From Sphingorhabdus sp. (GTDB lineage: Bacteria; Pseudomonadota; Alphaproteobacteria; Sphingomonadales; Sphingomonadaceae), in the NCBI GenBank assembly GCA_028279555.1, contig JANQNO010000002.1, forward strand, positions 62,001 through 126,000: a stretch of 64,000 bases of DNA, in the 5' to 3' direction. The position numbers and the translations under genes are program-made. Shown here in pieces: positions 5,813 through 56,286 of this stretch (position 1 is its first letter; every line of letters begins with the position of its first letter). The notes beneath the pieces are model-generated. The model was not told the origin of the DNA and ran no database searches. It saw only the letters and a program-made list of their open reading frames with translations.

Positions 5813-8800
5813 CACTCCGCCGCGAGCAATTCTTCGGCAGCATCGAGGTCCACGCTGACCAGCCGGCTCACGCCCTGCTCGATCATGGTCACGCCGAACA
5901 GGCGGTGCACGCGGCTCATCGTCACGGCATTGTGCGTGACGATCAGATAGCGGGTGTCGGTCTCGCGGTGCATCTTGTCGAGCAGGTCGCAAAAGCGCTC
6001 GATATTGGCATCGTCGAGCGGCGCATCGACCTCGTCGAGCACGCAGATAGGCGCGGGATTGGTGAGGAATAGCGCAAAAATAAGCGCGATGGCCGTCAGC
6101 GCCTGTTCGCCGCCTGAAAGCAGCGTCAGCGACTGCAATTTCTTGCCCGGCGGCTGCGCGTAAATTTCGAGGCCCGCTTCGAGTGGATCGTCGCTTTCGA
6201 CGAGCGCGAGATGCGCTTGCCCGCCTTCGAAGAGCGTGGTGAAGAGCCGCCGGAAATGCTGGTCGACCGCCTCGAAAGCCTCGAGCAGCCGCGTCCGCCC
6301 TTCGCGGTTTAGCGAACCAATGGAGCCGCGCAGCTGGTTGATCGCCTGGGTCAGCTCCTCGCTTTCGGCGGCTTTTTCGGCCTGCTCGCTTTCCAGCTCT
6401 TCAAGCTCATCGGCGGCGATCAGATTGACCGGACCGATGCGCTCGCGGCTCGCCTGCAGCTTTTCGAGCCGCGCGGACTCGCTGGCGGCTTCCTCGACAT
6501 CATCGCCAGGAAATTCCAGCTTTTGGGGTAGATCGGCAGGCTGGCATTCGAAGCGCTCGCTCGATATCCGGCCCATTTCGATGCGCCGGCTTTCTGCATT
6601 TTCGGCCCGCGCTTCTGCACCGGCCCTGGCTTCGCGCGATGCCGAGAGCGTTTCGGTCGCCTCGGCAAGCTGGTTTTCGAGCAGGCCCAGCGCCTCGCCG
6701 CTTTCCGTCTCCGCCGCCTGCAATCCCGCCAGCTTTTCCGACAGCGCCGATTTTTCCTTTTCCAGCGCGGCGATCTCTTGCGACAGCACCGCAGGCCGGC
6801 CTTCGATGTCTGCGCGCTCCTCGGCAATTTCGCCCTCGCGCTTTTTCATTTCGGCGATGCGTTTTTCCGCTTCGCCCGCGCGGTCCTGCCAGCTGCGAAT
6901 TTCGGCCTGCGTGACGGCTCGCCGCTCTTTTTGTTGTGCCAGCGTCTGATCGAAAGCGGAAAGATCGGCCTGCGCGCGCATCAGCGCCTGGCGAAGCGCT
7001 TCGCCCTCGTTATTCAGCTTTTCAACCAGCGCGCTATTCTCATCGGCATCGGGCAGCGCGGCCGCCGTCTTTTGCGCAGCTGCCAATTCGGCGCTGGCGA
7101 GCTCCAGATCTTCGGCATTTTGCGCCAGCCGCTGCTTCAGCGCCGCGCTTGCCGATTGCAGCCGTTCGAGCGCGCCCGCCGCCCGGTCGAGATCGCGCAG
7201 CGCTTCGCGCAATTCTTCATCCAGCTGCTGACGGGCCTGTTCGGCCTGCTCGGCCTTAGTGCGCAATGCGGATAGCTCATCGGATATCCGGGCGGCATCT
7301 TTTTCGGCTTTCTCGGCTGCCTCTTTTGACGGCGCAATCAGATTGGCAAGTTCGCGCAGGCGGTTGCTGCGGATCAGCATCTCTGCCTGGGTCGCGCCTT
7401 CATCCTCGCTCACAAAACCGTCCCAGCGGCGCATTCTGCCATCCAGCGTTACGAGGCGTTCACCGGGTGCGAGCGGACGCCTGTCATCGCTGTCGGCCAC
7501 GATGATCATGGCAAGCCTGGCCGCCAGTTCGGGAGGCGCGGTGACATGACCGGTAAGGCGCGCATTGTCCGATTTAATACCGCTAGGGCTGAGCCTGTCG
7601 AAGCCCGCTTCGCTGTCTGAAGACGCCCTTCGACTTTCGTTTTCGCCTTGCGAAAACGGCTCAGGGCTAGCGGTTTTTGGGCTGATATCTGCCCACCGCC
7701 TGCCACTGTCTCCGCCAATGACAGCTTCGGCATCCTCGCCCAGTGCAGCCGCCAGCGCGCGTTCATAGCCCTTTTCGGCGCGAATCCGGTCGATCGCCTT
7801 GTCGCCATCTGCATGTGCGAGTGCGCGTTCCAGCGCGTCCCGCTCCGCTTCCAATGCGGTATGGTCCGCGCGGGCCTTTGCAAGCGCATCCTGCGCCTCG
7901 CTGCGTGCGGTGATCAGCTCCTGCCGCCGGGCATCGAGCGCATCCGTTTCCCGCGTGCTTGCCGCGACCTGCTTTTGTAAATCTTCCTTCCGCGCCTCGG
8001 CCGCGTCCTTCTCCCTTGCCAGCGTATCCTCATCACCCAGGGCTGCTTTCTCCTGCGCCAACCTGTCCGCTTCTTCGGTTGCGCGCGAAGCCCTCGTTTC
8101 GGCTTGCTCAAGCGCGGCCCGGGCGACCCTCTGCTCGGCTTCTGCCTTTGCCTTTTCGGCATGCGCGCGCGCCAGCGCCAGCTCGCTCTCGCGCAATGCC
8201 TTTTCGGCATTTTCCGCTTTTCGGGCGAGGGCAGGACGCTCGGCTTCGCTCGCCTTCGCCGCCTCTGCAAGCTGAGCATTCTCTGCCTTCAGCTTCTCAA
8301 GCGCCTCGGCGGCATCATGCGTCAGCTTGCTTTCTCTTGCGCCATCGTCGGCAATGCGCTGCGCCTGCGCTTCAAGCTCGGCGATCCGCTCGTTGATCCG
8401 CTCGCGCTCGCCGGTCAGGCGGATGATCTTGCCCGAAAGATCGCTCGCCGCATCGCGCGCAGCCATCGCTGCGGCCCTGTCGTTGGCCAGCTTGGCCGTC
8501 GCTGCTTCCTGTTTTTCGGTCAGCGCGCTTTTTGAAGATGCCGCTGCCTCGACCGCCGCGCTCGCCTTGTCGGCTTCGGCTTTGGCAGCATCGGCTGCTG
8601 CCTTGGCTTCGCTCCAGCGGGCATAGATGAGCCGGGCTTCGGCTTGCGCGATCTCAGTCGTCAGTTTCTTGTAGCGCTCTGCTTGCCGCGCCTGCCGCTT
8701 GAGCTGCCCGGCCCGCGCGGTCATATCGCCCAGCATCGTGTCCAGCCGATCGAGATTGGCGGATGCGGCGCGCAGTTTCTGTTCGGCATCCTTGCGCCTT

Positions 8801-22118: not shown

Positions 22119-25100
22119 TCACCCCAACCGATCCAGTGCCGCCTGTAACCGATCGGCTTCCGCCGATTTTTCCGCGAGATCGCTGCGCGCCTTTTCGACC
22201 GCCTCGGGTTTGGCGCGCTCGACAAAATTGGCGTTGCCGAGACGGCCTTCAAGGGATTTAACCTCTTTGGAAACACCTTCCAGCGCCTTAGCGAGGCGGG
22301 CCTTCTCGGCATCGATGTCGATGATGCCTTCGAGGGGCACCGCGATAGTTTGCCCTTCGACGACCAGTTGCATCGAAGCGCCTTCGGGCGCATCACCGAA
22401 ATTTGCGGCGCCCATGCGCGCAACGCGCTCCAGCGTTGAAATGAGCGGCGCGACCTTGCCTCCCATGACTGCGGGGAACCAGCAATCAAGCTTTGCGCCC
22501 GGCGCAATACCGAGTTCGTTCTTGGCGCTGCGCATCGCGCTGGTGAAACCAATCACCCACTCGATCTCGGCCTTCGCTTCCGCATCCACCTCGGCGCGCG
22601 GGTTCGGCCATTTGGCGACGATCAGGTCGTAACTGCGTCCTTCACCTCCCGCCATCGCATGCCAGAGCTCTTCGGTGACAAAGGGCATGAAGGGATGCAG
22701 CATGACCAATATCTGGTCGAGCACCCAGCCAGCGACTTTGCGGGTTTCGTCGACTTCATTAAGCCCCTCCCCCTTGTGGGGAGGGGTTGGGGTTGGGGTA
22801 TCATTGTCCAGCCCCCCTCCGTCATCTGCTTTCGCCGAGGCTTCAGCAGATGCCACCTCCCCCACAGGGGGGGAGGATTGATTGAGTATCGGCTTGATCA
22901 GCTCCAGATACCAGTCGCAGAAATTGTCCCAGACAAAATGATAGATCGCGTTCGCCGCCGCATCGAAACGCAAATCCTCAAGCGCCTTGTCGAGCGCCGC
23001 GAGCGTTTCGGTGACCTCGCCGATGATCCAGCGATTGACTGGCAGCGTCGCTTCCGGTGCAGCGAGCGTATCGCTCGCACCGATGCCATTCGACTGCGCA
23101 AAACGCGCAGCATTCCAGAGCTTGGTCGCGAAATTGCGGTAACCCTCGACGCGCTTGTCATCCATCTTGATGTCGCGGCCCTGGCTCTCCATCGCCGCCA
23201 TGAAAAAGCGTAAGGCGTCTGCGCCATATTGATCGATCAGCCCGAGCGGATCGACGACATTGCCCTTGGATTTGGACATTTTCTGGCCATCCGCGGCGCG
23301 CACCAGCCCGTGCAGATAGAGCCGCCGCCAGGGCACCTCGCCCATAAAGTGAATGCCCTGCATCGCCATCCGCGCATCCCAGAAAAACAGGATGTCGAAG
23401 CCGCTGATCAGCAGGTCGTTGGGATAGTGTTTTTGGAGCAGTGAGGGAGCGCCCACCCCGCTGCGACTAACTTCGCCTTCGGCTGCGTAAGTCTCGCTCC
23501 CCTCCCGCTTGCGGGAGGGGTTGGGCGTGGGTTCTTCCTCAGGCCAGCCCAGCGTGCCGAAGGGCCAGAGCGCCGAGGAAAACCAGGTATCGAGAACGTC
23601 TTGGTCCCGAACGAGGATTTCCTTTCCTGCATTCTCGGTCTTAACACCTTCCAGAGCATATTCTTCCTCAGTGTCCACGATGATTATATCGTCCGGCGGA
23701 ACCGAGTATCTTTTGGCGGCTATAGCTCGAACTTCATCTTCGTTTCTAGCTACCAATGGCACCCGTTCTGAATCGTGTTCATCGTTAAATTCATCATCCA
23801 GTTTCGGCCCATACCACGCCGGTATCCGGTGACCCCACCAGAGCTGCCGCGAGACGCACCAGGGCTGGATATTCTCCATCCAGTTGAACCAGGTTTTCTC
23901 CCAAGTCTTCGGTACGATTTCGATATCGCCATTCTTGACCGCTTCGATCGCGGGCTGGGCCAGAACATCCGCCTTCACATACCATTGATCGGTGAGCCAG
24001 GGTTCGATCACCACGCCGCCGCGATCGCCAAAGGGCGTTGCGATAGTGCGCGGCTCGGCGTCATGTTCGACTTCCTCGCCGTCCTTGTTCTTGGTGATAT
24101 GCGGAATGAGAAAGCCGCCTTCTTTCAGTCGCTGAACCACCAGTTCGCGCGCGCCATCCACCTTGTCGCGTTTAAACCGGTGGAGCCCGATAAATTCCTC
24201 CGGCACCAGACCATCCGCCGTCTGGCAGACATTGGCCTCGCCATCGAGCATGTTGAGCATCTCACCTGGGGCAATCCCGGCGCGCTTGCCAACGTCGAAA
24301 TCGTTGAAATCATGCCCCGGCGTGATCTTCACCGCGCCGCTGCCCAGTTCGGGATCGGCATGTTCGTCGGCGATGACCGGCACGCGGCGGCCCGTGATCG
24401 GCAGCACCACGTGTTTGCCGATGACGCTTGTATAGCGCTCATCCGATGGATGCACGGCAACCGCCATATCGGCGAGCATCGTTTCAGGACGCGTGGTTGC
24501 GACCTCGATATAATCCTCGCCGCTATCCAGTTTAGCGCCATCGGCGAGCGGATATTTGAAATGCCAGAAATGCCCCTTGATATCGCTGGTCTCGACCTCC
24601 AGATCACTGATCGCGGTCTTGAGCTTCGGATCCCAATTGACGAGCCGCTTGTCGCGGTAGATCAGATCCTGATTGTAGAGATCGACGAAGACCTTGAGCA
24701 CGGCCCGCGAAAAATGCTCGTCCATCGTGAACTGCTCGCGGGACCAGTCCATCGAACAGCCAAGACGGCGGAGCTGGCGCGTGATCGTGCCGCCTGATTC
24801 CTCTTTCCATTCCCAGACCTTCTCGACAAATTCTTCGCGGGTGTAGTTGGTGCGCTTGTCCTGCTTTTCTTCCAGCTGGCGCTCGACCACCATCTGCGTC
24901 GCGATACCGGCATGATCGGTGCCCACGACCCAGAGCGCATCCTTGCCGCGCAGGCGTTCGTAGCGGATCATGATATCCTGCAGCGTATTGTCGAGCGCAT
25001 GGCCGATATGCAGGCTGCCGGTCACATTGGGCGGCGGATTGACGATGGTATAGGGCGGCGCTTCGGGGCGCTTCGGGCGGAACTGCCCGCTTTCTTCCCA

Positions 25101-55892: not shown

Positions 55893-56286
55893 TTAGTCCA
55901 GCGGCAATTCGATTTCCTGCATGATCCGGTCCGTCTTGATCAGGATTTTCACAAACCCCTGATAATGGCCGATATCTTCCCAGCTCAGTTCGCGGCCCTT
56001 GCGATCTTTCAGCCATTTCTGCGCGGGCTGGTAGCCACCAATATAAAATTCCCATGCGCTTTCGGGGACATCGGCAAAATACTGGTCCTTGTTGATGAAC
56101 ACCTGGCCCACCCCGCTGCGATCAGGCTCACCTTCGGTTCGCGAAGTCTCGCTCCCCTCCCGCTTGCGGGAGGGGTTGGGGTCGGTGACTCCCGCGCCAT
56201 ATCGGTGTCCGCCGGATCGATCCCCGCCCGCTCGCAAATATCGGCATAAATCTTCGGATCCAAATTGACCGTGCGCCCGGTCGACG
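55893..56286 (-). pseudogene. C-terminal remnant of a type ISP/IIG restriction-modification enzyme
   Basis: Two pieces in different frames. The distal piece encodes VFINKDQYFADVPESAWEF, then IGGYQPAQKWLKDRKGREL and GHYQGFVKILIKTDRIMQEI, which matches the end of the type ISP C-terminal specificity domain. The proximal piece encodes NLDPKIYADICERAGIDPAD, matching an earlier part of the same domain. The roughly 100 residues usually between them are gone; a family C palindromic repeat (56107-56187) sits at the break and the frame is shifted. It lies directly behind the stop of the intact enzyme gene and points the same way. Confidence 0.75.
56107..56187. repeat. Palindromic repeat in the restriction-gene remnant (family C copy 2)
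   Basis: Begins CCCACCCCGCTGCGA like the valS copy, with the hairpin CCCTCCCGCTTGCGGGAGGG. Positions 56146-56180 equal 23491-23525 over 35 bases. On the minus strand it encodes [15 protein letters not shown] and RSGVG in the frame that runs on into the INKDQYF piece. Confidence 0.85.

Follow-up and report, generated by a model that had tools for sequence, protein, structure and literature searches.

The valS locus

The window, by which is meant the whole stretch of 64,000 nucleotides that was analysed, carries a valyl-tRNA synthetase gene with two palindromic insertions and, elsewhere on the same strand, a second copy of one of these palindromes next to type ISP restriction/modification sequences (Table 1). 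The valS product matches the Pfam families tRNA-synt_1, Anticodon_1 and Val_tRNA-synt_C, and its best solved chain is 1gax, named valyl-tRNA synthetase, which we take to come from T. thermophilus.

Table 1. Features of the window, in order of position
Feature	Positions	Strand	Remarks
valS (valyl-tRNA synthetase), 1012 aa	22119..25157	-	host of two in-frame palindromic insertions
Second valS insertion, variant hairpins	22766..22876	-	in frame; KP site, after residue 757
Palindromic element in the GWP..YPND loop of valS	23451..23531	-	in frame; encodes 27 residues
ORF joining the element to a C-terminal remnant (about 70 codons) of a second type ISP enzyme	55893..56237	-	Type_ISP_C profile positions 274-341 only; plasmid homologs
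Second window copy of the element	56107..56187	-	adjoins the remnant; not an in-frame insertion
Complete-looking type ISP restriction/modification gene, 1116 aa	56292..59642	-	N6_Mtase and Type_ISP_C (1-342 of 342)

The element in the GWP..YPND loop consists of a core hairpin tagged CCCAC and a second hairpin, with an outer stem closing both, and its RNA folds at -45.9 kcal/mol (z -5.07). It is located between residues 473 and 476 of 1gax. The spacing from GWP to YPND is 38 residues in the window's valS as compared with 10 in L123, a net insertion of 28 residues (84 nt), of which 27 are element peptide. The initial annotation had placed this copy in the valS frame, and translation of both strands bears this out, with relatives mostly showing a short loop at that point. 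Within the genus, the loop held no recognised repeat in 26 of 30 rows and other repeats in three. To judge from these sequences, the site looks like a clean insertion, unlike the loops described below where native residues have been lost. The insertion at the KP site, which the initial annotation did not mention, has the end of its peptide read in the frame-1 phase.

The second window copy

The likeness between the two window copies proved slightly greater than first described: the identical core is 37 bp long from position 23489 (originally given as 35 bp), and the peptides match at 20 rather than 19 of 25 residues. A 33-bp core occurs twice in the window; 100 dinucleotide shuffles averaged 0.00 occurrences.

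What did not hold up is the claim that the second copy also lies in frame inside a host gene. It adjoins the ISP remnant, and the intact ISP gene, which lies upstream of that remnant, ends (...QMSLI-stop) before the element copy is reached. The intact gene additionally shows a weak MADS2 match of 24.7 bits, relative to a cut-off of 720. The remnant (VFINKDQYF...) is at most 65% identical to its plasmid homologs, which have GEGDNVVDKARFEGGKVWVNKTQHF-like or GEGDNVVDKARFEGGK-like residues just before the point corresponding to the element junction. No such ISP-like residues were seen before the second copy in three translated frames; the reading upstream of it aligns to the intact ISP gene with a score of only 30 and has no match in the plasmid collection. 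As the reading frames present it, the shared frame of the second copy is a read-through into the ISP remnant, and the copy marks a rearranged edge, its frame being uninformative on tolerance in a working gene. Since this copy is not inside a gene's reading frame, the pair in the window provides no evidence of frame bias.

Structure and distribution of the element

Both window copies belong to a family of short palindromes. In the window's own genome, 32 palindromes fit the pattern CCTCCCN2-12GGGAGG, versus one for a reversed-pattern control. The recurring unit is CCCACCCC-NNA-CCCCTCCCGC-NN-GCGGGAGGGG, its tag is CCCAC/GTGGG, and it is often paired tag to tag as a doublet of about 80-100 bp. 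The window copies combine the tagged core with a second hairpin different from that of the unit, the outer arms (CCCACCCC/GGGGTGGG) being about 8 bp in length; the predicted fold of both has a stem of 9 bp and a loop of 4 nt.

The exact unit is present in 77 of 298 Sphingomonadaceae genomes and in none of 187 genomes from outside the family, these belonging to a class-wide draw of 190 whose three matches were all within the family. The exact 33-mer of the window type was found in 56 named stretches, chiefly of Novosphingobium, Erythrobacter and Porphyrobacter, names that point to Sphingomonadaceae in the wide sense; 50 of these 56 loci could be evaluated for in-frame copies, and they yielded three candidate ORFs, none with a Pfam match. 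Copies are mainly intergenic. Among the 214 sites not called genic, a number that excludes unsupported ORFs, doublets with facing tags (RF) are the commonest arrangement (64), along with 10 doublets having the tags outside (FR) and 62 single units with one tag. In the own genome, a CGTC-type repeat (CGTCATTCCCGCGAAGGCGGGAATCCA) also occurs in L030 just upstream of the element copy at 6298-6364.

Rfam gave no matches on the window at gathering scores, and no mobility event or transposase was found. A Y1 transposase (PF01797) was considered as the mover and rejected, as the own genome gave no hit and no association was seen across the 298 genomes, where the unit occurs in 11 of 39 with Y1 and 66 of 259 without (p=0.70). 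By hand comparison of the tables, 66 of the 77 carrier genomes, the own genome included, lack a PF01797 hit. No direct repeat suggestive of a target-site duplication was seen by eye in flanks or in comparisons of filled with empty sites, the empty sites being those of diverged species only.

Copies within genes

The search for gene-borne copies covered 208 loci read around exact units (138 among the matches listed and 70 from a further set), which comprised 244 family sites, 237 of them evaluable and seven too near contig ends; the own genome contributed 21 sites. Codon use served to score the ORFs that span a copy, which were then checked by Pfam or by similarity to Pfam-checked genes. Supported in-frame copies were found at 22 of the 237 family sites, in 14 gene families: valS and carA (four each), uvrA and rnr (two each), and one each in glyS, ileS, ligA, mfd, ppdK and the genes for a dnaE-type polymerase, an MFS transporter, an ABC-F-like protein, an MmeI-type enzyme and a pdhC-type E2, the gene names beyond Pfam families being our own reading. 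In the own genome, six of 21 sites qualified (valS two, glyS three, uvrA one). Two pdhC-type copies, L052 and L056 (fwd2 and rev0), came from a search of relatives and stand outside these gene counts.

There were 37 candidates in the family sample, of which 12 were dropped as unsupported genes and three more lie in genes but are other hairpins. No Pfam family was matched at 0.001 for L153, L174, L209, L225, L236, L269, L274, L282, L318 or L349, with L236 having one sub-threshold Pfam match. L237 and L345 were rejected as genic copies, the element lying before or between the matched domains with a separate ORF start likely. The second site of L151, the first site of L181, and L230 are genic, but their hairpins are not those of this element. 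One of seven own candidates, L035, was set aside for want of a Pfam family.

Frame and length bias

The initial annotation had suggested counting in-frame copies genome-wide, and this count, run across the Sphingomonadaceae, reveals a frame bias among supported genic copies. Sense or antisense orientation, which the annotation also proposed to compare, is of little use here, since most genic copies are symmetrical doublets. In 228 exact units, forward frames 0, 1 and 2 are open in 226, 228 and 120, and the corresponding reverse frames in 228, 225 and 139. Within supported genes, the forward unit is read in frame 0 in 21 cases, frame 1 in two and frame 2 in two, and the reverse unit in 19, one and zero, respectively; two rev0 pattern matches inside fwd2 were removed from these figures as double counts, and degenerate units fitting no pattern are uncounted. 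The exceptions include frame-1 readings of the forward unit in the own valS KP copy, L212 and L239, frame-2 readings in L194 and L297, and a reverse unit in frame 1 in L194.

Collapsed by gene family over the own and family samples, the reverse unit is read as rev0 in 12, rev1 in one and rev2 in none. Against an expectation of 0.385 from frame openness, 12 of 13 gives p=9e-5, and p=0.0017 against a conservative 0.5, in a hand-assembled tally and with tests that treat gene families as independent and leave ancestry unmodelled. Read as PLPxAGG in 12 of the 13 families, the reverse unit takes its Trp/Cys frame in none of them. That Trp/Cys-rich reverse frame, found in 0 of 13 supported gene families, occurs in 5 of 9 ORFs lacking Pfam support (p=0.005), or in 5 of 10 when L236 is added (p=0.0075). 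Hydropathy does not account for the preference of frame 0 to frame 1, the mean values of frame-0 and frame-1 pairs being similar.

Length is biased as well. Doublets measure a multiple of three in 14 of 17 genic cases versus 22 of 64 others (p=0.0005), and in 8 of 11 once collapsed by gene (p=0.02); four RF doublets in unsupported ORFs, one a multiple of three and three not, were kept outside the test, and three of the 17 genic doublets are not multiples of three. The original idea that the element is tolerated only in the observed frame thus finds support for the family in the sense of a main frame, by the 12 of 13 gene families and the doublet lengths; other frames do occur, and the window pair lends it no support.

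A second idea, that the peptide is selected to be harmless, has indirect support from the missing Trp/Cys-rich frame, and there is no sign of conservation of the peptide after insertion. In units with one to three mismatches, third-position changes number 0 of 22 in genes and 16 of 125 elsewhere, with no genic enrichment. Codon positions gave no sign of purifying selection on the peptide, in a test whose outcome shifts with the limit set (p=0.13, 0.018 and 0.37 at three, four and five mismatches) and whose one low p-value goes against conservation. Because the peptide shows no conservation once in place, the phrase "selected to be harmless" is best taken to mean a filter at the time of insertion and not later maintenance.

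Loops shared by several palindromes

The same loops are repeatedly used by palindromes, and native residues are often lost in the process. At the FVC turn of glyS, the only repeat seen is the doublet type studied here, which occupies three separate places on the gene tree (own, G026 and G016; fewest changes 3) and occurs also in another genus (G364). Every FVC case reads its first unit in frame 0 and lacks the native HDxxGK-like turn. At the EEGIVK site of the same gene, five repeat types, this element included, occur among 32 rows from 31 genomes, with nine changes as the fewest on the gene tree, the labels of the other repeat families being rough ones from our own peptide patterns. The carA loop before VVAID, a short acidic loop in unfilled relatives, contains this doublet in L430, whereas L436 has a CGTC-like repeat there. 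Beside the element, the native residues of the loop have disappeared in glyS, carA, uvrA and at the KP site of valS.

Of nine loop inserts examined, one belongs to this family. All nine have better folds than shuffled letters (z -3.0 to -9.6), the eight others by far and over that same range, and their inverted repeats differ, which indicates that the other loop fillers are palindromic too. The weakest is the valS insert of L145, whose best exact inverted repeat of 7 was matched in 28 of 100 shuffles and whose fold has a z of -3.04.

Several further peptides were observed along the way. The own glyS (L032, 3092-5644) bears three insertions of CCCCTCCC..GGGAGGGG-type hairpins, and at about residues 215-240 a peptide, RAEPVE..LRQAQGE, that is also present in the relatives L399 and L400 and absent from the other rows compared. 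The glyS loci L398-L427 and uvrA loci L368-L397 show the palindrome-encoded peptides RPELVEG..SSART, SPAQAGA..DPGLRRG, HPELVSGS..KQVQHDG and SSPERGG..PPPRAGE in the same loops of different species. In L452 (the glyS of G364), the FVC doublet is accompanied at a second site by a CGTC-like repeat peptide, VIPAKAGIQ..DSRLRGND, both being in frame.

Interpretation

The reading that we favour, and hold to be probable, is that of a REP- or MITE-like, non-autonomous element of the Sphingomonadaceae whose surviving genic copies have been filtered by frame and loop tolerance. The element would spread by a transposition-like process without an enzyme of its own, and selection would then remove frame-breaking and badly tolerated insertions, giving rise to the bias. 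Genic survivors would be those with a total length that keeps the frame, a frame that is free of stops and of the Trp/Cys-rich reading, and a location in a permissive protein loop. Their peptide usually takes the form SPLPxAGGxGGGP..., and the valS insert would be one such survivor. The host loops presumably lie on the protein surface, where the peptides may act as neutral loop fillers. Some findings sit uneasily with this reading: the lack of any mobility event, transposase or target-site duplication among the results; the native residues lost in glyS, carA, uvrA and at the valS KP site, which simple insertion leaves unexplained; the preference for frame 0 over an equally open frame 1, for which hydropathy offers no explanation; and the genic doublets whose length is no multiple of three, together with the genic readings in frames 1 and 2. 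In addition, the number of gene families is small, and common ancestry or transfer may link some of the sites.

A rival to be taken seriously, if an unlikely one, is that the phase is set by an insertion preference for targets between codons (e.g., pyrimidine-rich codon ends), with no selection on the peptide. By eye, the bases just outside the doublets tend towards YTY/TC on the left side and towards GA/GGA on the right, whether the copy is genic or not; frame 0 places the doublet ends on codon boundaries, and the similar hydropathy of frame-0 and frame-1 pairs suits the idea. However, the outer bases may be part of the element itself, the Trp/Cys frame is missing only from supported genes, and the replacement of native residues at several genic sites means that the phase of the junction is not simply the phase of the target.

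A bolder proposal, which is also doubtful, is that several distinct, translation-compatible palindrome families are interchangeable loop cassettes that repeatedly enter the same housekeeping loops, remove native residues and survive in one preferred frame. If so, housekeeping proteins would be remodelled by selfish palindromes through replacement and not simple insertion.

Quite improbable, in our estimation, is the possibility that a few ancestral insertions or transferred segments have been counted repeatedly and that the bias is a matter of historical chance. Filled sites certainly recur in the same genes (valS at KP, carA, uvrA and glyS at FVC), and the FVC junctions are identical in four filled genomes. 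Nonetheless, the bias survives collapse to 13 gene families; the filled FVC rows are scattered among empty relatives, requiring the minimum of three changes given above, and have differing spacers; and there is the further filled case from another genus.

That the two window copies share a frame by mere chance, with nothing further behind it, is very improbable as an account of the whole. The second copy lies outside any gene's reading frame, and two copies of the window's element type would share a frame by chance with a probability of about 0.18 (by frame openness in 53 named copies). Chance thus likely explains the pair, but across the family these data show a strong bias. Finally, the notion of a mobile loop cassette whose peptide is useful or whose sequence is maintained by selection is scarcely credible. 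The recurrence of one peptide at the same loops of the same housekeeping genes speaks for it; against it, copies in genes show no enrichment of third-codon-position changes, the loops are empty in many relatives, and other palindromes also occupy them.

Comparison with known systems

The best-known examples of in-frame, protein-coding palindromes come from Rickettsia and Wolbachia. RPEs and the Wolbachia WPEs are short palindromes that sit in frame within many unrelated genes and encode a conserved peptide each, at exposed positions in contact with solvent, and the authors did not exclude insertion hotspots for RPEs (PMC3767692, PMC10969869). The Sphingomonadaceae element behaves in an RPE-like way, with in-frame copies of a recurring peptide in unrelated genes at the 22 of 237 family and six of 21 own sites. 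It differs in its host family and in having most copies outside genes, and, compared by description, in its length (about 80-100 bp versus 100-150 bp for RPEs). The ATGAC motif given there for RPE-4, -6 and -7 is not in the Sphingomonadaceae unit.

Closer in some respects are the CGTC-tagged REPs of alphaproteobacteria. Di Nocera (2013) places GTAG and CGTC REPs inside uvrA, ligase, DnaE2 and tRNA synthetase genes, and notes intragenic copies in tRNA synthetases of E. lithoralis and S. alaskensis (spelled as in that paper) as well as in repair genes (PMC3733652). The 9-bp stem and 4-nt loop of our element fall within the ranges described for these repeats (stem 8-9 bp, loop 4-5), and pairs with facing tags are common in both, no dedicated transposase having been found (PMC3733652). 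The tag is different: in place of CGTC, TGTC or CCTC and the A-T pairs at the start of the stem that the same text describes, there is CCCAC (PMC3733652). The CCA tail is also lacking, and the bases after the core of RF doublets begin GA, GG or GC. With GTAG REPs and their RAYT (Y1_Tnp) enzymes, the element shares small palindromes in symmetric pairs that are mostly intergenic, but the unit has no GTAG tag, and most carriers lack a Y1 transposase hit. The outer arms also fall short of the 15-30 bp terminal inverted repeats of MITEs, a figure from PMC3733652.

A literature search for the letters of the core DNA and peptide, with subscription journals and supplements outside its reach, turned up no recognisable description of the element. 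Hence the RPE-like behaviour is known, and what we did not find described is a differently tagged element of the Sphingomonadaceae that displays it. This element provides enough genic copies to count frames, as well as relatives with empty loops, which makes it possible to test what fixes the frame of a genic palindrome, whether selection against harmful peptides or a preference at the time of insertion. Moreover, loops common to several repeat types mark tolerant insertion points in essential enzymes.
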